Source: a virus
Virus record (IMG/VR): IMGVR_UViG_3300021598_001330
Span: 1 to 37,679 of that record
Length of the DNA stretch: 37,679 bases
Strand: one strand, 5' to 3'
Position numbers and translations under genes: made by a program. This document shows positions 5,881 to 37,679 of this stretch, in pieces; the first letter of the stretch is position 1, and every line of letters starts with the position of its first letter. The notes beneath the pieces were generated by a model. That model was not told where the DNA came from, ran no database searches, and was given only the letters and a program-made list of their open reading frames with translations.

Positions 5881-6153
5881 TTACGAATTTGATTTCGATT
5901 TTATTTTAACTTCAGGTTGTGGAGGGGTTTGAGAAACGAATAGATTGAGGGCTTCCGCCTTCTTAACTATGTCTGTTTCTGTGGGGAATGGTGGCAACTC
6001 GGGGATATCAGGTGACTCTAAACCGGCAATCTTTGCTGCCTCGACCTGTGTGTGCCATTGTTCTAGTTTAGCGCTTCTGTTGTATGAATACTCATCAGAT
6101 ACTAAACCTTGCGCCATCTTTAATAATTCTAGGCGAATTTCATAGGGTGTCAT
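5881..6153 (-). CDS. Small conserved-type phage protein, function unknown
   Basis: Ninety residues: a helical N-terminus (MTPYEIRLELLKMAQ), a proline-rich centre (SPDIPELPPFPTETD) and a short basic tail. It resembles small proteins I associate with T4-like marine phages but has no assigned function. A good AAGGAG site precedes the ATG. It is the first gene after the tmRNA and may be read from the tmRNA promoter or from the late-type motif at 6214-6221. Confidence 0.7.
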   Translation of the reverse strand: MTPYEIRLELLKMAQGLVSDEYSYNRSAKLEQWHTQVEAAKIAGLESPDIPELPPFPTETDIVKKAEALNLFVSQTPPQPEVKIKSKSNS

Positions 6154-6265
6154 ATTGTTACTCCTTGTGTGTGTTTATGTGTATTACCAGCGGTTTGTGT
6201 GTTGCTGGTGTTTTATTTATCCAGGTGATTCTGTTGCTAAGTTCACCTGGCGAAACTCCGCTTAC

Positions 6266-6301
6266 CTATCAGGCAGCAAGTGCATACTTATTATCGTTTG
6301 C
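6266..6301 (-). other. tmRNA tag reading frame, ANDNKYALAA then TGA TAG
   Basis: From the resume codon GCA at 6301 the frame reads ANDNKYALAA and ends at tandem stops TGA (6271-6269) and TAG (6268-6266). Compare ANDENYALAA of E. coli: the AND start and the YALAA degradation signal are the same, and only residues 4-5 differ (NK for EN). The tag is 10 residues, the same length as the E. coli tag, and should target products to ClpXP/ClpAP-type proteases and bind SspB-like adaptors. Confidence 0.95.
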
Positions 6302-6382
6302 GTTTAATTTAAATAGTTTTTACGGCTTCTCTGCCGATTCTCCATTGTTCTAATTATTGCCATGTCGAATCTAGGCACCCCC

Positions 6383-6450
6383 ATCAGAAGTATATTGCCA
6401 CAACTATATTGTGTGTTTGCTACCGATAACTCGGTTCGTCAATATACTTT
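6383..6450 (-). repeat. tmRNA intervening segment closed by a perfect 10-bp inverted repeat
   Basis: AAGTATATTG (6388-6397 on plus) and CAATATACTT (6440-6449) are perfect complements located just inside the ends of the 68-base segment between the CCA end and the 5' G of the coding piece. They extend the acceptor stem of the precursor, so the unprocessed RNA would be one long helix with a removable loop. An ACCGA/TCGGT hairpin sits inside. This is the arrangement expected for maturation of permuted tmRNA precursors. Confidence 0.9.
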
Positions 6451-6510
6451 TGGTGGAGGTGGTGGGAATCGCACCCACGTCCACAACAACGTTCAAACAA
6501 CTTCTACGAA

Positions 6511-6642
6511 TTACTTTACCGCTTCGGTATGTTTATGCTTAAGGCTTTTCTTTAACAATTTAAACCATAGTTTTTTAATCAATGGCGTATCATGCTTAAT
6601 TTCAGCCTCATATAAATTTTTAATTAACTCTTTAACTTTCAT
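6511..6642 (-). CDS. 43-residue basic peptide encoded between the promoter and the tmRNA
   Basis: ATG at 6642 to TAA at 6511 encodes a lysine-rich helical peptide (starts MKVKELIKNLYEAE, ends HKHTEAVK). A GGTGGG site lies about 10 bases before the ATG. The stop falls right at the start of the tmRNA acceptor piece. It is the only ORF between the strong promoter and the tmRNA. Function is unknown; it may be a real leader gene or a chance frame. Confidence 0.55.
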   Translation of the reverse strand: MKVKELIKNLYEAEIKHDTPLIKKLWFKLLKKSLKHKHTEAVK

Positions 6643-6680
6643 TTTCCGACCCACCACTTATTTTAACGAAATAAGAAACT

Positions 6681-6709
6681 ATTGTAACATAAAACTATTT
6701 AGATGTCAA
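6681..6709 (-). promoter_or_regulatory. Strong sigma70-type promoter for the tmRNA transcript
   Basis: On the minus strand TTGACA (6709-6704), a 17-base spacer and TACAAT (6686-6681). This is near-consensus and sits 39 bases upstream of the 43-residue ORF and about 170 bases upstream of the tmRNA acceptor piece, just after the nuclease gene ends. It should be read by unmodified host polymerase, so the tmRNA is probably made early. Confidence 0.85.
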
Positions 6710-6732
6710 CCATCGTTGGCATTATTACCGTT

Positions 6733-7170
6733 TTATTGGCACCAACCGACCTTAGCTCCACCATAGTATTCCCGTGCATATCCTTGTTGGATCAACATGG
6801 AACGCAACGATTTACCATCTAACAATACATCACCTAGGACACGACCACCATACTTGTCCCAATCCATTAATACCACTTGGCGAGTTTTGGCTGCATTGAT
6901 AGTGCTTTTGGTAAATGCCGTGGCCGCTTGACCTCTTTCATTTTCAGAGGGACATTGCGCACGATGGCCTTTTTCTGGAGTGTCCACACCAAATACACGA
7001 ATTGATAATTCTTTCTTTAATGGATCTGGTAACCATAGTGCTTGAAATGCCACAGTATCACCATCAATAACTCTGGTAATGGTTGCAGTATATGTTACGC
7101 CTTCTTTTTGTTTCTGTGCAAATACTGTTGTTGAAGTAACCAATAATAATGCAATCAAAATGTTTTTCAT
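6733..7170 (-). CDS. nuc: Secreted thermonuclease (staphylococcal nuclease family)
   Basis: A 145-residue protein with a signal peptide (residues 1 to about 19, ending VFAQ) and an SNase domain. RVIDGDTV at 33-40 gives D38; IRVFGVDTPEK gives R58, D63 and E66; DKYGGR gives R110. These match R35, D40, E43 and R87 of staphylococcal nuclease, so it should be an active Ca2+-dependent nuclease. Export suggests a role in the periplasm or outside the cell, for example digestion of host or competitor DNA. It overlaps the exonuclease gene by 4 bases (ATGA), so the two are probably co-translated. Confidence 0.92.
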   Translation of the reverse strand: MKNILIALLLVTSTTVFAQKQKEGVTYTATITRVIDGDTVAFQALWLPDPLKKELSIRVFGVDTPEKGHRAQCPSENERGQAATAFTKSTINAAKTRQVVLMDWDKYGGRVLGDVLLDGKSLRSMLIQQGYAREYYGGAKVGWCQ

Positions 7171-7820
7171 CTTTGTTCCTTGTAAAATTTAATCGCCTTC
7201 ACCAAACCAGGAATATGGTCTTGTGTCCGTTGTTTAAATAACAACGGTTGTTCATTTTCTACCGCCATTATAATTACAAGATTATTTATAGGTGTACCAA
7301 TCATTTCTTCATACATCAAAGCGTATGCAGCTGTTTGCCAATAGTAATCTTCAATGTTTGCGCTTGATTTAATCTTCTTGGATGTTTTAAAATCAATTAC
7401 AGATAGTTCACCATCGAATTCACCAATACAGTCTACACGACCTGCCATTTCTAATTGTTTGGACCATAAGGCACACTCTTGGTAATGAATATTGTCGATT
7501 CGATTAAGTAATGGTTTCAATGATACAAACATTTCTTTGGCATCAGGCATAATATCACCCAATGATTCATTATTGAGATATCGTTCACAGAGTGTGTGAA
7601 CATTGGTACCACGACTAGTTGCCTTCTTTGATACACGATTGGCTTCTTCTTCACCAACTCTCTTACGCCACTCCATAATGGCTTGTTTCTTTTGGGCACC
7701 AAGCACAGTAGTTACAGAAGGTAATTTGGTACCATCTTCTAGTGTATAGTAACGCTTTCCATCAGGAAAGGTTTCAGATTTTAAGTCAGCAAGGACTTTT
7801 GGTGGACAATAATTAAACAT
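7167..7820 (-). CDS. PD-(D/E)XK exonuclease, MGME1/RecB type
   Basis: A 217-residue protein with the RecB-like nuclease layout: SVTTVLG near residue 35, RGTNVHTLCERYL (conserved His) near 70-80, AGRVDCIGEFDGELSVIDFKTSKK (the D, then D-F-K catalytic core) around 125-150 and a QTAAYALMYEE motif (conserved Q and Y) downstream. It resembles the mitochondrial genome maintenance exonuclease group common in T4-like environmental phages, and probably processes single-stranded DNA ends in recombination or host DNA degradation. It overlaps the oxygenase gene upstream by 8 bases. Confidence 0.85.
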   Translation of the reverse strand: MFNYCPPKVLADLKSETFPDGKRYYTLEDGTKLPSVTTVLGAQKKQAIMEWRKRVGEEEANRVSKKATSRGTNVHTLCERYLNNESLGDIMPDAKEMFVSLKPLLNRIDNIHYQECALWSKQLEMAGRVDCIGEFDGELSVIDFKTSKKIKSSANIEDYYWQTAAYALMYEEMIGTPINNLVIIMAVENEQPLLFKQRTQDHIPGLVKAIKFYKEQR

Positions 7821-8469
7821 AATCTATATCGAATACAAATACATTACGAGGCAAATCACTATTATGGACACTAACAGCATGATATACTTCTGGTGAATGT
7901 ATTACTAATTCTCCTTGTTTTGGTTTTAAATAGTACCTATCACATTCATCATATTCATGAATATATGTATCTGCTTTACCGTTGCGTATAAAAACTAAAT
8001 CTGAACTGCCTTCTGGTACATCAACATAAAAAATTCCAACGGCATCTGGTCTAAAATTCTCTGGTGAGTATTGGGTCATTTCAGACATATACTCATCCAG
8101 TTTAACATGATTATGGCATAATCCTTGGCCATCACGAAATAGTCTATTTGCCCAACTTCTTTTATAATACACCGATTTTACTTCTTTGTCAACACCTAAT
8201 TGTTTGTGTACCAAAAGAAATTGTTCTGTAATCCAACTAGTTAAGTTTGAAGCACCAGGTAAGTGAATTAAATCTAAGTATGACTGACCAACAGAAGTTA
8301 AACCGTTACCCTTATGTGAATCGCCTTTGTCATTTCGTTTTCTGTTTTTCACCGTAGGCATATTCAAAACGTGGTCAACACTTTTTGTTAAATCTTCATT
8401 ACGATAAAGTTCTTCATTTTGACATTGTATTCTTACGATTGTACTATCAAAAACATTTTCAATAATCAT
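7813..8469 (-). CDS. 2OG-Fe(II) oxygenase-like protein of the modification cassette
   Basis: A 218-residue protein whose second half has the double-stranded beta-helix pattern of 2-oxoglutarate/Fe(II) dioxygenases: a His/Asp-containing segment CHNHVKLDE (119-126), beta strands FYVDVPEGSSDLVF, then KPKQGELVIHSPEVYHAV (H197) and LPRNVFVFDI (R208 for 2OG). Exact iron ligands are uncertain because the first site is not a clean HxD. The family hydroxylates or otherwise oxidises unactivated carbons. The ATG abuts the end of the halogenase, so it belongs to that operon and probably acts on the same product. Confidence 0.65.
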   Translation of the reverse strand: MIIENVFDSTIVRIQCQNEELYRNEDLTKSVDHVLNMPTVKNRKRNDKGDSHKGNGLTSVGQSYLDLIHLPGASNLTSWITEQFLLVHKQLGVDKEVKSVYYKRSWANRLFRDGQGLCHNHVKLDEYMSEMTQYSPENFRPDAVGIFYVDVPEGSSDLVFIRNGKADTYIHEYDECDRYYLKPKQGELVIHSPEVYHAVSVHNSDLPRNVFVFDIDYV

Positions 8470-9992
8470 TATGTATTTTTAAGTTCCTCAATATAATCAT
8501 TATGGTGAAACATAAAACTACTTTCTAACTCAAATAATTCGGTCAAATCATTTTCAGTTTTTGTAAAATCTTTAAAATCTCGGTTTAATATTTTTTTAGC
8601 CATCTCAGAACTATAATACTTTATACCAGATCCAACTTGTAACCAACTACTTTCTGAAAACATTGGTATATGTTTTATGCTTGGATTGATTCTGTTTGTT
8701 TCCAAATCATTTAGATAGGTTAAATTGTGTTTTTCAATTATATTATCTTTTATTATTAAATTTAAATCTTCAATAAATGGTAGAATTTTATTTTTTGTAG
8801 AAAAATTTATCCAAAATTCACTATCGTTTCTCTTTGTTTTATAGTGGAAGTGTATAAAATTTAAAACATCTAAATTTGTCCGTTTCATAGAATCATTAAA
8901 GTCTTTAATTATATTTAAGTCTTTTTCTAATATTTTTTCTTTGTTGTTTCCCCAACTCTTTAACATTAGAATAGTTACCCATATGCTTGTTGCTTCTAGA
9001 GGTTCAACAAAGCTCGAACTTAAACCCATAGCAACACAATTTTTTACACAAACCTCCTCAAAACAACCGGGATCAAAATTAAATGCTCTTGGGCTTGTTA
9101 TTTTGTGGCCAAAATATTCTTCTAATTCTTTAATAATATCTTCATCTGAAACAAAATTAGAATCGAAAACATAACCACACCCATGACGACCTTGCACGGG
9201 AATTTTCCACACCCATCCATGTTTCATTGCAATTGATTCTGTATATGGTGGCAATTCTTCGCCATCATTATCAATGAAAAAAGGAAGTGCTCGGTTCAAT
9301 GGTAAATGCTCTTTGTATGATTTCCATTTAGAACCATAATGTTGACCAATAATTAATCTTTTAAATCCTGTGCAATCGAACACAAAATCGGTTGTCATTA
9401 ATCCTTGTGATTTTAAATCAAAACTTTTAATAAAACCTTCAGAATCATTATTAATAGAAATTACTTCATCATCAATTAATTTAATATTTCTTTTTAGACC
9501 AACGGACTGTAAATGTTTTGCCAATAGATTGGCATCAAAATGTAACGCATATGCTCCGTATGATTCGTAATTTTCTTTGTGTATTTTTACTTGATTTTTT
9601 TCTGAAATATATGATGTTAGATTGATATCATTGAATGAATCGCCAGATGAAATCTTATTCAAGTAGTATGGTTTAAAATCGGCATTTGCTCGCTCATCGG
9701 TATTCTTAAAGTAATCTTGAAACCCGTGATAATAATGGCTACCATCTCCATTCCAATTAGTAAATTTAATACCGTTTTTAAATGTACCTTTGGCGTTTTT
9801 AATGATATCAGAGATTGGAATATTCATTTCGTTCATCAGTTCAACGAATTGTGGTGTAGTACCTTCGCCTGCACCCAATATTCCTATCTCACTACTTGCA
9901 ACTACAACCACTTCATCTTTTGGACAAATATGTCTAACATAAAGAGCTGTTAACCATCCTGCCGTACCTCCACCAATAATTGTATATTTCAT
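8469..9992 (-). CDS. Flavin-dependent tryptophan halogenase family protein
   Basis: A 507-residue protein with the FAD-binding GGGTAGW (7-13), the GxGE-T motif AGEGTTPQF (41-49), a catalytic-lysine region GTFKNGIKFTNW (K72 the likely one) and the family signature WxWxIP at 260-265 (WVWKIP). SSSFVEPLEATSIW (326-338) carries the conserved glutamate region. Known members use FADH2, chloride or bromide and oxygen to halogenate tryptophan, free or within peptides. All core motifs look intact. It sits between an unknown 223-residue gene (4-base overlap) and a 2OG oxygenase, in a cassette that also has a radical SAM enzyme and a peptide with a hidden Trp-containing tail, which favours a peptide substrate. 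Confidence 0.9.
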   Translation of the reverse strand: MKYTIIGGGTAGWLTALYVRHICPKDEVVVVASSEIGILGAGEGTTPQFVELMNEMNIPISDIIKNAKGTFKNGIKFTNWNGDGSHYYHGFQDYFKNTDERANADFKPYYLNKISSGDSFNDINLTSYISEKNQVKIHKENYESYGAYALHFDANLLAKHLQSVGLKRNIKLIDDEVISINNDSEGFIKSFDLKSQGLMTTDFVFDCTGFKRLIIGQHYGSKWKSYKEHLPLNRALPFFIDNDGEELPPYTESIAMKHGWVWKIPVQGRHGCGYVFDSNFVSDEDIIKELEEYFGHKITSPRAFNFDPGCFEEVCVKNCVAMGLSSSFVEPLEATSIWVTILMLKSWGNNKEKILEKDLNIIKDFNDSMKRTNLDVLNFIHFHYKTKRNDSEFWINFSTKNKILPFIEDLNLIIKDNIIEKHNLTYLNDLETNRINPSIKHIPMFSESSWLQVGSGIKYYSSEMAKKILNRDFKDFTKTENDLTELFELESSFMFHHNDYIEELKNT

Positions 9993-10660
9993 AGTGGTAA
10001 AATGTTGGTGTGTTCTTCTAAAGTTTTTGGCATAGTATTATTATAATATTCTTTTATTTTTTCAACTATATTGGGGTGTTGTTCAACATCTTCACAAACT
10101 TCAATTGGAAATGTACCTGAATATTTTGTAAAGATATTTGTATCGTTTGAATGTTTCATATCACAATTAATAACAATATAATTTGAGATACTATTGTTAT
10201 ATAACTTAATATTTTCCACAAACTCAAATTCATTAATTTTTTCCAACAATTGAGCTTGTATCACACTAATTTCCGTTATGGCTGTGGCCTTATGAATTTG
10301 TTCAATGATATCGGTCTCTGGATTTAAATAATAAAAAGAATCCAAATAATCGGTATTGATACACAATGTACAATCATTATCTGTACAAGACTTTCTATCA
10401 AAATAACCTTCCATCAACATATCAATTTGACTTTTATTTTGTATAACTTCTTGTGGAAGAGGTTCTGAACAAAATATTTTTGGTATAACCAATTCAATAA
10501 AATGTTCATTTTTAAATAACTTAAACATAAAACACTCAACACCACCAATCAATTGTTTGTATTCAATTGGATTATTATAAATCTCAACACTAGTGATATT
10601 TACCATACTATCAAAAAAATCAATTTTTTCTTGTAAATTTGGTGTTATTGTTACCGACAT
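9989..10660 (-). CDS. Unknown 223-residue protein of the modification cassette
   Basis: No family is recognised. The protein has a short cysteine cluster (SCTDNDCTLC, about residues 91-100), an acidic composition and no signal peptide or membrane segment. It starts directly after the radical SAM stop codon (TAA then ATG, no gap) and ends in a 4-base overlap with the halogenase, so it is translated with both. By position it could be a peptide-binding or carrier component for the modifying enzymes, but nothing in the sequence shows that. Confidence 0.75.
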   Translation of the reverse strand: MSVTITPNLQEKIDFFDSMVNITSVEIYNNPIEYKQLIGGVECFMFKLFKNEHFIELVIPKIFCSEPLPQEVIQNKSQIDMLMEGYFDRKSCTDNDCTLCINTDYLDSFYYLNPETDIIEQIHKATAITEISVIQAQLLEKINEFEFVENIKLYNNSISNYIVINCDMKHSNDTNIFTKYSGTFPIEVCEDVEQHPNIVEKIKEYYNNTMPKTLEEHTNILPL

Positions 10661-12100
10661 TTATACCTCTACTCTAGATTTTCCATAAATTTCCACATCA
10701 TTCAATTCACCAATTTTTTCTGCAACAACTTTAATTGGTATAATTTTTCTTGTGGGTTTTTCTTCATGTTTATATACTGTTCCAAAAATATCTTGGCGTG
10801 ATAAAGGTAAACCTTCACCTTTAATCGTAACAGGAATATAACCACCTGTTATTTTTTCTAATGCCAAAGCAAATAAACTAATGGCATCCGAATAAGCATT
10901 ATCACAAGTTACATCCCAATGTTTTCCGTCCAAATACATACAAGAACCTTTACAGATATGTAGAACTGGACAATCCGAACAACTCACACGATTCATCCAA
11001 TGTGTGGCAGATGTTAAGCTAACATTATCATAATCATCTAGATTACCACCATAATGTGGTTCACCATTCTTACTATTCTCAACGATAGAAACGTTCTGAC
11101 AAGTTACAATATTACCTTTTAAATCAAGTGCAACTGTTGTTGGTTCTTCCATACCACACTTTTGGCCAACATATTTGTTTTCAACATGAGCCAATGTGCC
11201 TTTAATAAAATTATCAATTTTGGTAAAGACCATACCAAAATTAATACTGCCTTGGGAGGCGTAAATATCGCCAAAAGATTTTCTTCTGTAATTAAAGTGT
11301 TCGTCTAATGTAATTAATGAATTATTTACTGCTGCATCATCATACGCATCAATGAATCCACCTTCACCAATTGGAACTGATGGATCACCAGTCAACTCAG
11401 CAAAGAAATCATAAATTGCTTTACGGTCAATATTTTTATTATTCAACATGGCATTAAAACTAATTCTGCCTTGTGGCCTCATGATGTTATAAAACTCCAA
11501 GATAATCTTTTTCTTCTCAGCGTCATCAAACGGATCAGGACCACGAACATATTGGCCAGGACCATCGTGACTGATGCCAACACTAAATCCCATGTAGTAG
11601 ATCCAAGAACAAATCTCTCTTGTTAATAGTGATCCATTGGTTACCATACTGAAATTAACTTTCTTTTTCCAATGGCTATATCTTTCAGCAAAAGCTTCGG
11701 CCAAAGGTTTTAAAGTTTTCCAATATACTAATGGTTCGCCACCCCAAAATTCTACTCTTAAACCAGATTCTTCAGTAATGTTTAATGCGTCCAGTTTACG
11801 CATAAATTCTTCAATATCTTTTTTGCTTGTTTCTGGTGGCCTTTCAACAAATCTTTGACTGCAATAGTCACAGGTGTAATTGCAAGATAAACCTAATTGA
11901 ATTTTAATCAAATCAATATTTTTTGATTTTTTAAGTGGATTTTCTTTCGAAAAAGGTACAGTTTCTTTTAGATTAGGTTTTTTTATTTCTGGATATTCAT
12001 AAACAAAACCAGTTTCATCTTTCAAAATTGAATTTACATTATCATAGTAAAACTTCTTACCATCAGTAGAATTTTTTTCAGCATATATTTCAAATATCAT
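10661..12100 (-). CDS. Radical SAM enzyme with SPASM domain
   Basis: A 479-residue protein. CNYTCDYC gives the radical SAM CxxxCxxC site (C73, C77, C80); WGGEPL (119-124) is the GGE motif. The C-terminal part has C315 and C334 followed by C374-x2-C377-x5-C383-x3-C387 and C399, the full seven-cysteine SPASM layout that binds two auxiliary iron-sulphur clusters. Such enzymes modify peptides and proteins: thioether and carbon-carbon crosslinks in RiPPs, or formylglycine in sulphatases. The first 65 residues form a small beta-rich extension that could bind a leader peptide. AAAAGG precedes the ATG, and the gene starts 12 bases after the small peptide gene, the usual precursor-maturase arrangement. 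Confidence 0.93.
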   Translation of the reverse strand: MIFEIYAEKNSTDGKKFYYDNVNSILKDETGFVYEYPEIKKPNLKETVPFSKENPLKKSKNIDLIKIQLGLSCNYTCDYCSQRFVERPPETSKKDIEEFMRKLDALNITEESGLRVEFWGGEPLVYWKTLKPLAEAFAERYSHWKKKVNFSMVTNGSLLTREICSWIYYMGFSVGISHDGPGQYVRGPDPFDDAEKKKIILEFYNIMRPQGRISFNAMLNNKNIDRKAIYDFFAELTGDPSVPIGEGGFIDAYDDAAVNNSLITLDEHFNYRRKSFGDIYASQGSINFGMVFTKIDNFIKGTLAHVENKYVGQKCGMEEPTTVALDLKGNIVTCQNVSIVENSKNGEPHYGGNLDDYDNVSLTSATHWMNRVSCSDCPVLHICKGSCMYLDGKHWDVTCDNAYSDAISLFALALEKITGGYIPVTIKGEGLPLSRQDIFGTVYKHEEKPTRKIIPIKVVAEKIGELNDVEIYGKSRVEV

Positions 12101-12112
12101 AATAATCCTTTT

Positions 12113-12367
12113 TTATTTACCAACAAGCACAAGCACAAATCCAACAAGCACACGCACAGCAGATTCAGAGCAATTACCATTGTTACAATTACCTTCATTG
12201 TTGCTTTGATAATATGCCTTACTGTAAAAGGCCGCCATATTAGGAGATGCTGGCGCCGATTTCAATAACCCATTCAAAAAGTTTAAAGATGAGGAAAAAG
12301 TAGGCGCTTGGCCAATTTCCGTATTGATATTGGATATGGTTATGGGTCCCGAGGCTGGTAATGTCAT
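12113..12367 (-). CDS. Tail-fibre-like small peptide, candidate substrate of the cassette; 3' end frame-disrupted
   Basis: As it stands this encodes 84 residues. The first 55 (LPASGPITISNINTEIG, SLNFLN, AAFYSKAYY) match the short motif repeated in phage tail-fibre proteins. Then comes NNEGNCNNGNC and an odd valine-rich end. In the -1 frame, bases 12164-12117 read I-CCACACWICACACW-stop. The two repeat units there (TGT GCG TGT GCT TGT TGG and TGT GCT TGT GCT TGT TGG) differ only at a silent Ala position, while in the annotated frame the same difference is Arg/Leu. A slip after Ser69 would give an 83-residue product ending GNCSES-CCACACWICACACW. With a Trp halogenase and a radical SAM/SPASM enzyme in the operon, this looks like a precursor peptide core. 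The frame break may be a sequencing error, a mutation or programmed. Confidence 0.7.
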   Translation of the reverse strand: MTLPASGPITISNINTEIGQAPTFSSSLNFLNGLLKSAPASPNMAAFYSKAYYQSNNEGNCNNGNCSESAVRVLVGFVLVLVGK

Positions 12368-12391
12368 TTACAATTCCTTAAATTAATGAGG

Positions 12392-12399
12392 TATTTATC
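12392..12399 (-). promoter_or_regulatory. T4-late-promoter-like GATAAATA upstream of the small peptide
   Basis: Minus strand reads GATAAATAC, one base from the T4 late -10 element TATAAATA, 25-32 bases before the peptide ATG. The same octamer occurs at 6214-6221 and 14140-14147, also upstream of genes. A late class would fit a peptide with a tail-fibre-like domain. The motif is short and A+T-rich, so chance is possible. Confidence 0.3.
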
Positions 12400-12967
12400 T
12401 ACTAATATTTGATACTGATCCATTATGTATATTTGTAGTAATACTAATCCTTTTGTCATCCGACATATTTTTCTCAACCTCATGTAAAACATATGCCGGA
12501 AATAACACCAATTTACCCTCTTTCGGCTTAACTCTTTTGTATTTGATGCCACGAATACCACCATCTTCCAACCATTCCCAATTTACACCACCTCTAGGGT
12601 CAACCAATAACAAATCACCACAATCGGCCGGAGATTTAACATAGTAAGTACAGGTTAATAATGAACCTCCATGGTCATGTAGTGGGTTACCCACACCTTT
12701 AAGATTTTCATTAATCCAGCCAAACATAATACATGGATTGTAGGGGTAAAAGTCTGGGAAGTATTCAGTTACCGTGTTATCCAAAGATTCAAATATTTTA
12801 TCTATTAAAATATTCAAGCACGGAGTTGAATATTCCCATAGGTTAGTGCGTGAATTTTTTGGTATCGTACCATTCAATTCTTCCAATAATTTATCATTAA
12901 AAAGATAGTTTAAACCAGTGTCTATTTCCCAAACGGGAGTTGACCACCACTCATGTTTCGTAATCAT
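12395..12967 (-). CDS. 2OG-Fe(II) oxygenase-like protein
   Basis: A 190-residue protein of the putative 2OG-Fe(II) oxygenase type: an N-terminal WWSTPVWEID segment, then PLHDHGGSLLTCTYYV (H97/H99 as iron ligands), GDLLLVDPR, KPKEGKLVLFPAYVLHEVE (H162) and DDKRISITTNIH (R173 for 2OG). The order fits a compact jelly-roll dioxygenase. It overlaps the next oxygenase by 17 bases and ends 27 bases before the small peptide, so it is the gene directly upstream of the candidate substrate. Confidence 0.78.
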   Translation of the reverse strand: MITKHEWWSTPVWEIDTGLNYLFNDKLLEELNGTIPKNSRTNLWEYSTPCLNILIDKIFESLDNTVTEYFPDFYPYNPCIMFGWINENLKGVGNPLHDHGGSLLTCTYYVKSPADCGDLLLVDPRGGVNWEWLEDGGIRGIKYKRVKPKEGKLVLFPAYVLHEVEKNMSDDKRISITTNIHNGSVSNISR

Positions 12968-13547
12968 AATGTTTTTCTTTCACACGATTCAAATTTTTCA
13001 TATCAATATTAATTTCATTAATGAAAAAATTAAGGCTTAATCTACAATCATCAATGCTTTGGCCAAAACCAAAATTGGGAGAATGAAAATAATCTCCACG
13101 ATACAATATCATTTTATTGAATTCATAACTAATGTTGGTTTCTTCACCATTTCTGTATATTTTTGTTCCATGATTATTAAATTTATCCACAAAGTTTTCA
13201 TTTAAATAAATTAAACCAGAATATAAAGAGGTGTCTTTGTGTACCCAAGAATTATTTGGTATATGGGTATCAAATAAACAATGAAACAAACATATGGATT
13301 GTAATTTAATTTTGGACGGTACGCTGTCTTTAAAGAGTTTGGATACTATCTTATTATTTAATTCATAACACAATTCTTCACTTAATATATCAGAAATGTG
13401 TAATGTTCTTATACCACTATAACCAAACTTTGGATTGGTCATCGATGGGTTATCTTTTGTTAGATAATATTTTTGTTTTTTGGCCAATTCAACAATTTTG
13501 TGTGGGTCATCAAAGAAATTGTTGACACATAATATATCGGGTATCAT
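12951..13547 (-). CDS. 2OG-Fe(II) oxygenase-like protein (DUF6445-like)
   Basis: A 198-residue protein with a clear HxD pair in SWVHKDTSLYSGLIYLNE (H103, D105), the distal GDYFHSPNF (H155) and DDCRLSLNFFI (R169). These are the iron and 2-oxoglutarate ligands of prolyl-hydroxylase-like dioxygenases. It starts immediately after the stop of a 49-residue gene (TAA ATG) and is the first enzyme of the oxygenase-peptide-rSAM-halogenase run. Confidence 0.8.
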   Translation of the reverse strand: MIPDILCVNNFFDDPHKIVELAKKQKYYLTKDNPSMTNPKFGYSGIRTLHISDILSEELCYELNNKIVSKLFKDSVPSKIKLQSICLFHCLFDTHIPNNSWVHKDTSLYSGLIYLNENFVDKFNNHGTKIYRNGEETNISYEFNKMILYRGDYFHSPNFGFGQSIDDCRLSLNFFINEINIDMKNLNRVKEKHYDYET

Positions 13548-14656: not shown

Positions 14657-14898
14657 TTCTTCACCTTATTAATAGTTGCAGTAGATGTTTTTTCATCTAT
14701 TGTCATATAACCTTCACAAGCAATATTCCAGTCATCACCAAATTCATTGCCGGATCGTTCTGATTGTGATGGCACATTAATCTTTACATTTTTAAAAATA
14801 AACTCATCACCATTTTCAAATACACGCCACGCATGGTCTTTACCGCCACGACCTGGTTGGCCTTTTGATTTGTTAAAACGAATATGATATTTGTTCAT
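14653..14898 (-). CDS. Small conserved-type protein, function unknown
   Basis: Eighty-one residues, beta-rich and basic: NKYHIRFNKSKGQPGRGGKDHAWRVFENG, then FIFKNVKINVPSQSE and a Thr/Lys tail. No signal or membrane segment. It is coupled by 4-base overlaps to both neighbours. Confidence 0.7.
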   Translation of the reverse strand: MNKYHIRFNKSKGQPGRGGKDHAWRVFENGDEFIFKNVKINVPSQSERSGNEFGDDWNIACEGYMTIDEKTSTATINKVKK

Positions 14899-15560
14899 GC
14901 GTTTGTTATGGCCAAATTAAAATGAATTAATCTTAATGGTTGTTTACTTGGATTTCTTTGAATGGTGTGTGGCAACCAAGAATTAGTTAGAATCATCAAA
15001 CCAGGTTCAGGCGTATAGTTTATCATGTTGCTTGCAATCGTTGCTTGAGTAATATCCATTTCAGGTAAATTGGCATAAACTTTAGCAGGTCTTGGATCAT
15101 GAAACACAACTCTCGGTCCATCTTTTGGGGTATCAAGGAAATAAAATCCAGATATTTGATTACCCATGCCGTGAATGTGTTCTTCGTGGCCAGAACCTGT
15201 GTGGTGTTCTTGAGCCCACATTTCAGTATATACCATTTTAAAACCGGTTACATTGTAACCTTGCGAGAGCAATACTTGATGTGCAGCACCACTCACAAAA
15301 CCAACAAAGTCACTAATCCTTGGATCAGTAAACATATTGTCACCTTGAGCAATAGGAAAAGTTTTATCTAGTTTAACTTTTTTCTTTGATTCATCAAGAT
15401 ATAGTTTAGATACTTTTCTTAGTGTATCAAGAAACTTTGGTTCAATCAAAGAGTAGATGCTACTACAAAAATAATTGGCGCCGTAAAGTTGTACTTGCTC
15501 ACTTTTTAATTCGTTGGTGTTTTCAGAAACTTCACCAACTACTTTTGCTTTTTTTACCAT
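14895..15560 (-). CDS. 2OG-Fe(II) oxygenase-like protein (TIGR02466-like)
   Basis: A 221-residue protein with GHEEHIHGMGNQISGFYFLDTP (H128/H130 iron ligands), GPRVVFHDPRPA, EPGLMILTNSWLPHTIQRN (H198) and QPLRLIHFNLA (R210). The order and spacing fit putative 2OG-Fe(II) dioxygenases common in marine T4-like phages. It lies 1.3 kb upstream of the modification cassette and on the same strand, separated by small genes, so whether it acts there is open. Confidence 0.82.
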   Translation of the reverse strand: MVKKAKVVGEVSENTNELKSEQVQLYGANYFCSSIYSLIEPKFLDTLRKVSKLYLDESKKKVKLDKTFPIAQGDNMFTDPRISDFVGFVSGAAHQVLLSQGYNVTGFKMVYTEMWAQEHHTGSGHEEHIHGMGNQISGFYFLDTPKDGPRVVFHDPRPAKVYANLPEMDITQATIASNMINYTPEPGLMILTNSWLPHTIQRNPSKQPLRLIHFNLAITNA

Positions 15561-35488: not shown

Positions 35489-35693
35489 TTTGCTCACTCA
35501 ATAAGGTAGGTTTAGAATTTTTGTTTGTATAGTCTGCTGCAAACTGAGTTGCTTCAGATTCCGTCATAAACACTTTACTGAAAGAAGCTGGTGCTTCGGA
35601 TGTTCCATAATTTACTTTCCAAAAGCCTTCGCCTTCATAAATCACGGCCATAATTTTACCAGCTTCACCAACAAAAGTTGCTATATCTTTCAT
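35475..35693 (-). CDS. Small protein, function unknown
   Basis: Seventy-two residues: ATFVGEAGKIMAVIYEGEGF, then FSKVFMTESEATQFAADYTN. Same strand-strand-helix pattern as its neighbour. 4-base overlap with the VWA gene. Confidence 0.64.
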   Translation of the reverse strand: MKDIATFVGEAGKIMAVIYEGEGFWKVNYGTSEAPASFSKVFMTESEATQFAADYTNKNSKPTLLSEQNGTI

Positions 35694-37679
35694 GATATTA
35701 ATCCTATAAAACGATTTAATACAACACGGTTATTCAAACGGTTACCAGCGTACTTACTAAATGCTGAAACCAGACCACGGGTGGTGGCATTCTCTTTCAC
35801 TTCAAAGGTTACATCTTCATCTGTATCTAGTGCTTCTGTTTTCAACAAATAGTATTCATCGAAACCGGCATTGGTAACAGTCAATGATTTGTTTTTACGG
35901 AACTCTGCTTTGATTTTATCATGTAACATATAGTTATTAGGATAAAAATGATGCAGTTCACGACCCAACTCACGACCAGCCAATACATAGAAACCAACAA
36001 TGTTACAATTAGTTCTCAACTTCAACATCTTTATATATGATGCAGTTAATTCACGACCACGGTTAATCTCAATAATTTCTTGATTCTTGGTAATTGGATC
36101 ACGCAACACCATTTGGCGTTTTGCTCGCCAGTTAATACTATCATAATCAATTTCTTGATTGGTTGAACCATCTCTTAAATTACCCTTGTTATCTCTATAA
36201 AAAACATCAGAAAGACCATGGCCTTCACCATCAGTTAAGAATACGGTATTCACAATTTGTAACTTATATTGTTTTTGAAATTCAGGAACAATCTTCATGG
36301 CAGAGATAACGGCTTCATTCAATGGTGTGCCGCCTTTTTGCAACCAGTTTGGTCTCCAGCCACAGCGATATTCTGACATCTGTACTAAGGCAGAACCGGC
36401 ATAGGTAAATTCAGCCGCAGTCATCTTACTTGATAACAGATTCAACAATTTAAATTGACGCAATACAACATCACCTTCAACTAAGGCTTGTTTGTATGGT
36501 TCATCATGTTCGGCAGAGAAAGCATACACATCATAAGGAATGTTTACTTTCTTACAGAACATTACTAAATTAATTAATTGCTTTACAGTATTTTCCATGT
36601 GGCCAGACATAGAACCAGACCAATCGAGGAACATTACAAGACCATGTGATTTGGCACCAGGCACTACTGTCATCTTTTTGAAAATGTCATCAGTCAACTG
36701 GTAAGAATAAATCTTACTCATGTTCAAATCGCCAGTTTTGGCAATAGAAGCACGTTTCAATTGGTCAGCATTTTTACGCAATTCAAATTCTTTGGCAAGA
36801 TAGCCAACAACTTTTTTGGAATCATTACGCAACTTCATAAATTTCTCTGTGTCGAGGCCGGTAAAATCATCACTTCTATAATGCTTTGATTCATTTTTGG
36901 CATCTTCACGAAAACGTTTCCATAAAGATTTGTGATTTACAATTGCATCTTCTAATTTAATATTAGGAATATTGGCATAGTAATGAGTGCGGCCATCGGT
37001 CGCAAATAGTTTACTTTCGTTTTTACGATATGCTTCATCAGTATAGGATTTAATTTCGAGAGATTCTTCTTCGGAAACTTGAGTGCCGCCAGCTTCATTG
37101 CCCGAATCTACATCAGGATCTTGGTCATCTTCTTTTGCGTTAGGATTTTCTTCGCCAGAATTTTTATTATCTTTGCGAGTTTCTTCTTCTTCATCAAATT
37201 CATCAGAATCATCATAACCATCAGCATCGATACCTTCATAGTCACCATCTTCATCTTCTTCAAATTCGGTAGGATGATTTTTCTTGTGTTCTTCGGCTTG
37301 CTTTTTCATATAGTCGCAAACAAGGCGAGCAACCTTCATCACATCATCATAGGTCTCGGTTCCTTCAATAAGGTGAATCAGGGTTTGCTCATAGTCGGTA
37401 AATTTAATACCTTGTGTTGTACCACCTTTGGTGTAAAGATTGGTACGGTCAATAAAGTTTAAATCATTAAGGTCGGTGCCGTTGGTACCAAAGAAATCTT
37501 TTTCAATTAGTTCACGATATGCACGAACAAAGCTGGAACGAATACCAGGATATTTGTTTTTAACTTTTTTCTCAATACGAACATCTTCCAAAACATTCAT
37601 TACAGATGCTGGAATCTTTTCTTCGTGGGCTTTGATTAAACCATCGAGAGGAGTATAAAGTGCATGGCCAACCTCATGA
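35690..37679 (-). CDS. CobT-like VWA protein with HExxH motif (5' end outside the window)
   Basis: The frame is open to the window end, 26 codons beyond the first internal ATG (37600), so the gene is partial. The visible start HEVGHALYTPLDGL carries a zinc-metalloprotease-type HExxH motif, followed by VLEDVRIEKKVKNKYPGI. Counting from ATG 37600, residues 110-180 are very acidic, and a VWA domain begins near 315 with the metal-site motif DWSGSMS (326-332), then FCKKVNIPYDVYAFSA and TVFLTDGEGHG. The layout resembles CobT-type VWA proteins that pair with MoxR/CobS ATPases; the CobS-like gene at 21084-22247 is the likely partner. The complex may remodel or cut a protein target. Function in the phage is not known. 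Confidence 0.85.
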   Translation of the reverse strand, partial: HEVGHALYTPLDGLIKAHEEKIPASVMNVLEDVRIEKKVKNKYPGIRSSFVRAYRELIEKDFFGTNGTDLNDLNFIDRTNLYTKGGTTQGIKFTDYEQTLIHLIEGTETYDDVMKVARLVCDYMKKQAEEHKKNHPTEFEEDEDGDYEGIDADGYDDSDEFDEEEETRKDNKNSGEENPNAKEDDQDPDVDSGNEAGGTQVSEEESLEIKSYTDEAYRKNESKLFATDGRTHYYANIPNIKLEDAIVNHKSLWKRFREDAKNESKHYRSDDFTGLDTEKFMKLRNDSKKVVGYLAKEFELRKNADQLKRASIAKTGDLNMSKIYSYQLTDDIFKKMTVVPGAKSHGLVMFLDWSGSMSGHMENTVKQLINLVMFCKKVNIPYDVYAFSAEHDEPYKQALVEGDVVLRQFKLLNLLSSKMTAAEFTYAGSALVQMSEYRCGWRPNWLQKGGTPLNEAVISAMKIVPEFQKQYKLQIVNTVFLTDGEGHGLSDVFYRDNKGNLRDGSTNQEIDYDSINWRAKRQMVLRDPITKNQEIIEINRGRELTASYIKMLKLRTNCNIVGFYVLAGRELGRELHHFYPNNYMLHDKIKAEFRKNKSLTVTNAGFDEYYLLKTEALDTDEDVTFEVKENATTRGLVSAFSKYAGNRLNNRVVLNRFIGLIS

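Follow-up and report, generated by a model that had tools for sequence, protein, structure and literature searches.

A Seven-Gene Cassette in a Viral Contig

The window analyzed here, a stretch of 37,679 bases (positions 1–37,679 of the IMG/VR virus record IMGVR_UViG_3300021598_001330), carries a cassette of seven overlapping or abutting genes on the minus strand, in which putative modifying enzymes surround a small cysteine-rich protein. The initial annotation, made from the sequence alone, had proposed a locus of the kind that yields ribosomally synthesized and post-translationally modified peptides (RiPPs), and all seven of its genes were recovered. In order, they encode a 2-oxoglutarate (2OG)-Fe(II)-type protein (oxC), a 2OG-Fe(II) oxygenase (oxB), the small protein, a radical S-adenosylmethionine (SAM)/SPASM maturase-like enzyme, a protein initially listed as unknown, a flavin-dependent tryptophan halogenase, and a 2OG-Fe(II)-like oxygenase (oxA).

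The radical SAM enzyme (10661–12100) matches PF04055 (3.5e-9) and combines a CX3CX2C motif with seven further cysteines, the hallmark of radical SAM/SPASM proteins. C73, C77, C80, C315, C334, C374, C377, C383, C387, and C399 are invariant in 15 aligned sequences, in agreement with its description as a seven-cysteine SPASM enzyme; its best NCBIfam matches are PapB (1.3e-24), geopeptide (5.2e-21), QhpD (4.3e-20), and CcpM (3.6e-19). The halogenase (8469–9992) matches PF04820 (2e-97) and is complete, as had been annotated. Its GGGTAGW motif, K72, the GW.W.IP core (GWVWKIP in the window), and E330 are invariant in five sequences and align with the solved halogenase 5lv9, K72 and E330 being, we assume, the catalytic residues, and its matches among solved chains are almost all tryptophan halogenases (30 sequences, best 4.6e-77).

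The three 2OG-Fe(II)-like oxygenases of the initial annotation were borne out by PF13759 in oxB (12395–12967; 2.6e-18) and, more weakly, in oxA (7813–8469; 7.4e-7, with phrog_81 at 2.5e-14); oxC (12951–13547) matches PF20043 (DUF6445; 2.1e-6) and phrog_1644 (4.4e-20). For oxB, TIGR02466 scored 60.3 bits (cut-off, 62.5), and related 2OG genes lie near many of the loci that encode cysteine-rich proteins. The expected HxD motif appears in oxC as HKD, by which its product is predicted to be 2OG-like; the oxC profile finds six distinct sequences, and its best PHROGs family is named 'minor coat protein'. A fourth 2OG-Fe(II) oxygenase gene lies outside the cassette (14895–15560, minus strand; PF13759 4.3e-15, phrog_81).

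The partner protein encoded directly behind the radical SAM gene (9989–10660) has, like the small protein of the window, no Pfam match. It evolves fast: among three related cassettes (L006, L007, and L009), identity is lowest for this gene (27–31%) and highest for the radical SAM gene (77–79%). In each of the 27 halogenase-group loci examined, a partner open reading frame (ORF) of 103–239 amino acids begins 0–7 nt after the end of the radical SAM frame. Sixteen of the ORFs belong to one profile (A5); the remaining 11 match it with E-values between 5e-50 and 2e-7, and the weakest match is a half-length ORF (L122). When the profile was rebuilt on all 27 ORFs and applied to radical SAM loci having 4.2 kb or more of downstream sequence, the partner gene was found in 28 of 28 loci with a halogenase, partly by construction, versus 6 of 134 without one. 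The model of the window protein shows two alpha/beta halves (pLDDT 83), with no PDB match at E <= 0.001; a fold of the ribosome-hibernation type was considered and set aside as too weak (best VIA Z 5.8, second half only).

The Cysteine-Rich Protein and Its Link to the Radical SAM Gene

The product of the small gene in the window (12113–12367), an 84-residue peptide and the precursor-like peptide of the initial annotation, proved to be a damaged copy of the native protein. It begins with a fiber-like N-terminus (MTLPASGPITISNINTEIG) and enters an Asn-Cys-rich tail. With the radical SAM protein as query, eight loci were found in IMG/VR, three of which (L003, L004, and L005) are 99.82–99.97% identical to the window over 9,496 bases and encode, directly before the radical SAM gene, an intact protein of 160 amino acids and 23 cysteines whose Asn-Cys-repeat tail ends in NCACACWICACACW. 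Relative to these contigs, 232 nt are missing from the window at the 12159/12160 junction, which shows no microhomology. The start and end of the gene are unchanged, and the last 15 residues of the window peptide (AVRVLVGFVLVLVGK) are read out of frame as a result of the loss. The 84-residue peptide was thus ruled out as a precursor, and an explanation by −1 frameshifting was dropped once the deletion had come to light. At a second clean gap (17948/17949), the three contigs hold about 134 nt more than the window, which hints at an assembly fault behind the 232-nt gap; it may also be a real deletion in the virus. A tblastn search of phage records with the damaged peptide gave no match, possibly because BLAST masks low-complexity sequence. 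Diverged homologues of the intact protein end in ICACW (L006) or ICACACW (L007 and L009).

Profile scans of IMG/VR, each restricted to the best 80 of more matches, returned 80 radical SAM, 80 halogenase, and 79 peptide loci, and a later peptide scan returned 80. After deduplication of all loci fetched from IMG/VR and from genome records, 116 distinct cysteine-rich proteins were obtained, and a radical SAM/SPASM gene lay within 4 kb of 114 of them. Both exceptions are on cut contigs, one ending 159 nt downstream (L204) and the other starting 238 nt upstream (L195), where a short radical SAM piece was detected at a looser threshold. The co-occurrence of enzyme families around a small peptide, for which the initial annotation had suggested searching environmental phages, was thereby found, as was the defining arrangement of RiPP systems, namely an encoded precursor beside modifying enzymes. 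In this arrangement, the cassette resembles RiPP or protein maturation, which makes it at most a candidate RiPP system.

In the reverse direction, ORFs with the motif [ND]C[NADST]C were sought near the viral radical SAM loci and were found on the coding strand in 76 of 80, versus 6 of 80 on the opposite strand, which served as the control. Of the four loci without such an ORF, two have the start of the radical SAM gene at a contig end (L039 and L047), and in a third (L041) the contig stops 265 nt behind the gene. The fourth, L018, has its radical SAM relative (70%) at 6103–7548, and a halogenase of another clade starts about 7 kb downstream. Loci without a peptide, which the initial annotation had named as evidence that would speak against a precursor, are rare among close relatives (4/80, three of them at contig ends) and do occur among the distant relatives described below (17/78).

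The cysteine-rich proteins evolve under purifying selection, as judged from the ratio of nonsynonymous to synonymous substitution rates (dN/dS): the median for 47 pairs is 0.09, and values lie at 0.05–0.08 in pairs with a terminal tryptophan such as L023/L024, L020/L022, L029/L040, and L021/L023. Asn precedes 75% of the repeat cysteines, and the commonest cysteine spacing is two. In long variants, a helical C-terminal domain (pLDDT mostly 87–96) follows a cysteine segment that is unfolded in the AlphaFold model. This domain has no PDB match at E <= 0.001, and the form that carries it matches no PHROG or Pfam fiber family; at the same threshold it matches four viral predicted structures, including an 886-residue 'DUF4815 domain-containing' phage protein (3.9e-9). 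In another variant (L025, 305–1402), the usual N-terminal motif is followed by a long glycine-rich stretch joined to the cysteine-rich tail, which to us recalls glycine-rich phage adhesins.

The Halogenase and the C-Terminal Tryptophan

Cleavage of an S74 domain leaves the residue ahead of its serine as the new C-terminus. The mature end of a cysteine-rich protein was defined with the S74 domain, where present, removed, which affects two of the 26 proteins concerned (L026 and L033); L032 and L034 show the same tryptophan before S74. A halogenase lies within 6 kb of 26 of the 27 proteins with a mature C-terminal tryptophan, the lone exception (L015) being on a contig that stops 2.7 kb downstream. 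Beside tails without a terminal tryptophan, no halogenase was found in any of 71 loci with at least 4.2 kb downstream, nor in 18 more on shorter contigs. The halogenase and tryptophan labels agree in all 81 rows of a radical SAM tree (Fisher p = 9e-22, a value that ignores descent). Within 21 aligned tails, chosen for ending in tryptophan and thus invariant there by selection, inner tryptophans are swapped for F, L, or T or are absent.

This pairing belongs to one group of phage halogenases. No cysteine-rich partner was found within 8 kb of the halogenase in HTVC008M, S-H38, P-SSM2, or DSL-LC01, and many IMG/VR halogenase loci of other clades have no cysteine-rich protein, which rules the pairing out as a general property of phage halogenases. 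A terminase ORF neighboring the HTVC008M halogenase ends in tryptophan, which was taken as coincidence. On each of five phage contigs (L109, L112, L114, L115, and L118), two or three distinct halogenase genes lie no more than about 8 kb apart and 2OG genes are close by; no cysteine-rich protein was found on these contigs.

Relatives on Bacterial Genome Records and Fusions to Fiber Modules

A scan of genome records gave 79 loci (among the best 80), of which 78 were analyzed. By record title, they come mainly from Burkholderiales (Limnohabitans, Polynucleobacter, Paraburkholderia, Burkholderia, and others), Rhodobacteraceae, and Rhodospirillaceae, and a few are titled as Bacteroidetes, Verrucomicrobia, or Akkermansia metagenome-assembled genomes. 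The motif was present within 3.5 kb on the coding strand in 61 of 78 loci, versus 26 of 78 on the opposite strand. A stricter choice left candidates in 59 loci, with the repeat at the extreme C-terminus in 53, before a Hint domain in five, and internal in one; candidates end, for example, in ..YNCNCNCACDCC or ..FNCNCNCRC. In one record (L315), the start of a fiber-like cysteine-rich ORF lies some 3.6 kb upstream of where the radical SAM enzyme matches; relatives of this ORF (e.g., L287) end in CCGCC.

Fiber homology was examined for five genome-record proteins and for gp028 of Achromobacter phage JWF. Fiber families are matched by L262 (phrog_7389, 4.3e-10), JWF gp028 (4.8e-9), and L245 (5e-89, largely through collagen repeats); L263 matches fiber and head-decoration families, L278 matches weakly (0.0012), and L258 has no fiber-family match. 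Two viral proteins (L026 and L032) also match fiber families, largely via an S74 domain (PF13884; 1.2e-6 and 29.2 bits for L026, 1.3e-4 and 22.6 bits for L032, the latter barely above the 22-bit cut-off). In both, ..CFW directly precedes the S74 region and is immediately followed by SDDTLK, and the Pfam match starts at S128 and S125, respectively. The serine and lysine five residues apart have the spacing of the self-cleaving S74 dyad, as given in the available part of the source (PMC3742443).

A tblastn search of phage records with the radical SAM enzyme found 18 records, three of which covered at least 80% of the enzyme (Achromobacter phage 2-1, and JWF twice). In JWF and 2-1, the tail genes are followed by a fiber gene with NCNC repeats and a Hint domain; the radical SAM gene lies two genes further on, just ahead of the lysis genes. 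A 2OG-type gene directly precedes the radical SAM gene in L262 (PF13640, 4.6e-7) and L258 (phrog_81, 2.5e-11; the Pfam score of 23 bits is below the cut-off of 27), and the gene at this position in L245 has no Pfam or PHROG match. Between the fiber-like gene and the gene at the 2OG position, L245 (7567–8376) and L258 (7611–8399) have a gene for a protein of about 265 amino acids with no Pfam or PHROG match, and the C-terminal ends of such products are alike in several genome-record loci.

Genomic Neighborhood of the Cassette

Genes flanking the cassette match phrog_224 (single-strand DNA-binding protein) and phrog_269 (helicase loader), which we take as T4-like. The gene order is complete in L006 and L007 and recurs in L009 without oxB and with extra sequence ahead of oxA; this recurrence, together with the low dN/dS, suggests that the cassette is more than a chance assembly. 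Far from it, a protein of the peptidase family phrog_459 (1.3e-160) is encoded at 35693–37600 (minus strand). The window also encodes a transfer-messenger RNA (tmRNA; 6178–6543, minus strand) with the ARAGORN tag ANDNKYALAA, which scores 115.5 bits with the Rfam model tmRNA_permuted (gathering threshold, 47) and 85.2 bits with beta_tmRNA (84), and which hints at a betaproteobacterial host.

A Proposed Tailoring of the Fiber Tip

We favor, with moderate confidence, the reading that the cassette is a phage post-translational tailoring system for the tip of a small fiber-type virion protein. The cysteine-rich, fiber-like protein is probably the substrate of the cassette enzymes: the protein encoded at 12113–12367, in its intact form, would present an N-terminal phage-type segment followed by an Asn-Cys-repeat tail ending in tryptophan. 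PapB and QhpD form thioethers, and since the radical SAM/SPASM enzyme is akin to them, it would most likely crosslink the repeat cysteines to neighboring residues via thioether bonds. The 2OG oxygenases would hydroxylate residues of the tail, the halogenase would act on the C-terminal tryptophan, and the partner protein perhaps, as a guess, presents the substrate to it. The outcome would be a rigid, chemically unusual fiber tip that contacts the host surface. The gene linkage, the conservation of the substrate, the tracking of the halogenase with the C-terminal tryptophan, and the fusion of the tail to self-processing or fiber modules are all present in the sequences compared, and the earlier view that these enzymes belong with a fiber-like precursor has gained strong support from them. 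From these features we infer the chemical steps, a presence in the virion, and a role in adsorption, and we likewise prefer a virion peptide to the secreted toxin that the initial annotation had offered as the other possibility.

Several observations weigh against this proposal. Much of the halogenase–tryptophan correlation comes from common descent, since the label switches only twice on the radical SAM tree and 26 of 26 peptide-linked halogenases fall into one clade of 30 (SH-aLRT 99) on a halogenase tree of 83 rows. Supported independent pairs number one, or two counting all branches; many parallel origins, looked for on the radical SAM tree, did not appear, and as read from these trees the correlation is deep conservation in one or two lineages rather than many parallel gains. 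One genome-record protein (L315, with a partial radical SAM match) ends in ..CACCGW with no halogenase in the locus. Because the scans kept the best 80 matches, the counts describe close relatives, and even among these L018 has the radical SAM gene with no cysteine-rich protein nearby. In the genome-record set, the motif background is higher, as the opposite-strand count indicates, and the motif is absent near the radical SAM gene in 17 of 78 loci, at least seven of which have full flanks (L288, L297, L301, L303, L307, L308, and L317). The short tryptophan-tailed protein itself matches no Pfam or PHROG family. As to the enzymes, all NCBIfam scores listed for the radical SAM protein are below the family cut-offs (PapB, NF047865, 87.1 bits versus 340), and sulfatase maturases and viperins score as well. 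Where a plain HxD is expected, oxA and oxB mostly show HNH and HDH or a similar triplet instead (HNH in the oxA of the window), which makes their 2OG activity less certain. The radical SAM enzyme, being sensitive to oxygen, would also have to function alongside enzymes that use it. Modification of the substrate is proposed by comparison, none having been observed.

A true RiPP, in which the modified tail is cleaved off as a small peptide, a toxin or signal that is set free rather than built into the virion, is unlikely in our judgment. The enzyme set is RiPP-like, a peptidase-family protein is encoded elsewhere in the window, and RiPP halogenases acting on a C-terminal tryptophan (SrpI) or on modified cores (MibH) are described in the accessible portion of PMC12615548. 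Among the seven genes of the cassette, however, no transporter, protease, or immunity gene was recognized with Pfam and PHROGs (the other ORFs of the window were scanned in part). The S74, Hint, and fiber fusions place the same type of tail on fiber-type proteins, and in JWF and 2-1 the module sits between fiber and lysis genes.

A tail that serves instead as a ligand for a metal or Fe-S cluster, or whose cysteines pair as disulfides, while the halogenase and the radical SAM enzyme have other roles, we regard as distinctly unlikely. Dense CxC repeats could ligate metal, and the repeat of a long variant is unfolded in AlphaFold (pLDDT ~30), but neither the link to one radical SAM/SPASM family (114/116) nor the asparagine before three-quarters of the repeat cysteines would be expected of plain metal sites. 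Auxiliary metabolism, with the halogenase acting on free tryptophan, the oxygenases on small metabolites, and the genes merely clustered, appears improbable. It would fit the 57 of 83 halogenases in the tree that are unlinked to a peptide (four of them cut members of the linked clade) and the similar 2OG gene outside the cassette; the peptide-linked halogenases, however, form one clade whose four peptide-less members (L010, L094, L100, and L101) have only 798, 14, 2, and 3 nt of upstream sequence, L010 keeping part of a radical SAM gene, and none of the 71 assessable tails without a terminal tryptophan has a halogenase beside it. In the pearlin pathways, biosynthesis takes place on a carrier peptide. 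Modification of the C-terminal tryptophan on the protein, followed by its release as a small molecule, is very improbable here, for although a scaffold with stepwise-modified residues resembles the ammosamide logic as set out in the available text of PMC12715798, no peptide aminoacyl-tRNA ligase was recognized among the seven genes with Pfam and PHROGs, and the tryptophan is genetically encoded.

Extended beyond the window, the tailoring proposal would mean that an undescribed maturation is common to diverse phages, among them T4-like ones and those, free or as prophages, of Burkholderiales and Rhodobacteraceae, and that in it an Asn-Cys fiber tip is crosslinked by a radical SAM enzyme and, in some lineages, also carries hydroxyls and a halogenated C-terminal tryptophan, giving non-proteinogenic receptor-contact tips; for this wider claim we see the arguments as evenly balanced. 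If it is true, one clade of viral halogenases has the end of a virion protein as its native substrate, and phages apply natural-product chemistry, such as radical crosslinking and halogenation, to the parts that contact the host. This would add a new layer to virion chemistry and to host-range evolution, and would provide a source of enzymes for modifying protein ends. The correlation between the halogenase and the C-terminal tryptophan yields a precise prediction that can be checked by mass spectrometry, and the system would be categorically new if modification of the virion were demonstrated.

Comparison with Known Systems

PapB ranthipeptide maturases, QhpD, and CcpM, which are among the best NCBIfam matches, are, like the cassette enzyme, radical SAM proteins with SPASM domains, and their substrates are cysteine-containing and ribosomal. 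The cassette enzyme differs from them in its score (87 bits against a cut-off of 340 for PapB), in being phage-encoded, and in its putative substrate, which is fiber-like with Asn-Cys repeats. Phage fibers with an S74 chaperone, and JWF gp028 with its Hint domain, resemble the fused forms described above in having a C-terminal self-processing domain directly behind the cysteine-rich tail; no dedicated modification of such a fiber end by a radical SAM enzyme or halogenase was found in the literature searched. No description of the cassette system was found in searches of one open-access library. A T4-like environmental genome has 12 radical SAM genes (PMC5332604), and a radical SAM gene occurs in phages of Alphaproteobacteria (PMC10783043), the available text of neither source linking them to fibers.

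With regard to the halogenase, VirX1 of cyanophage Syn10 is likewise a viral flavin-dependent enzyme and matches the cassette halogenase profile at 8.8e-63; its substrates in vitro are small molecules, according to the accessible part of PMC8407142. The halogenase loci of cyanophages S-H38 and P-SSM2 (8 kb on each side; not the locus of VirX1 itself) have no cysteine-rich partner, unlike the cassette. SrpI/SrpE and MibH, similar to the cassette, pair a flavin-dependent halogenase with an encoded peptide; the target of SrpI is a C-terminal tryptophan, and MibH works after other modifications, as far as the available text of PMC12615548 goes. Neither the nitrile-hydratase-like leader that SrpI requires nor the lanthipeptide that MibH requires is evident in the cassette, and the peptide-linked phage halogenases, whose activity is predicted, group as one separate clade within the set of phage halogenases compared, in a tree that did not include SrpI and MibH.

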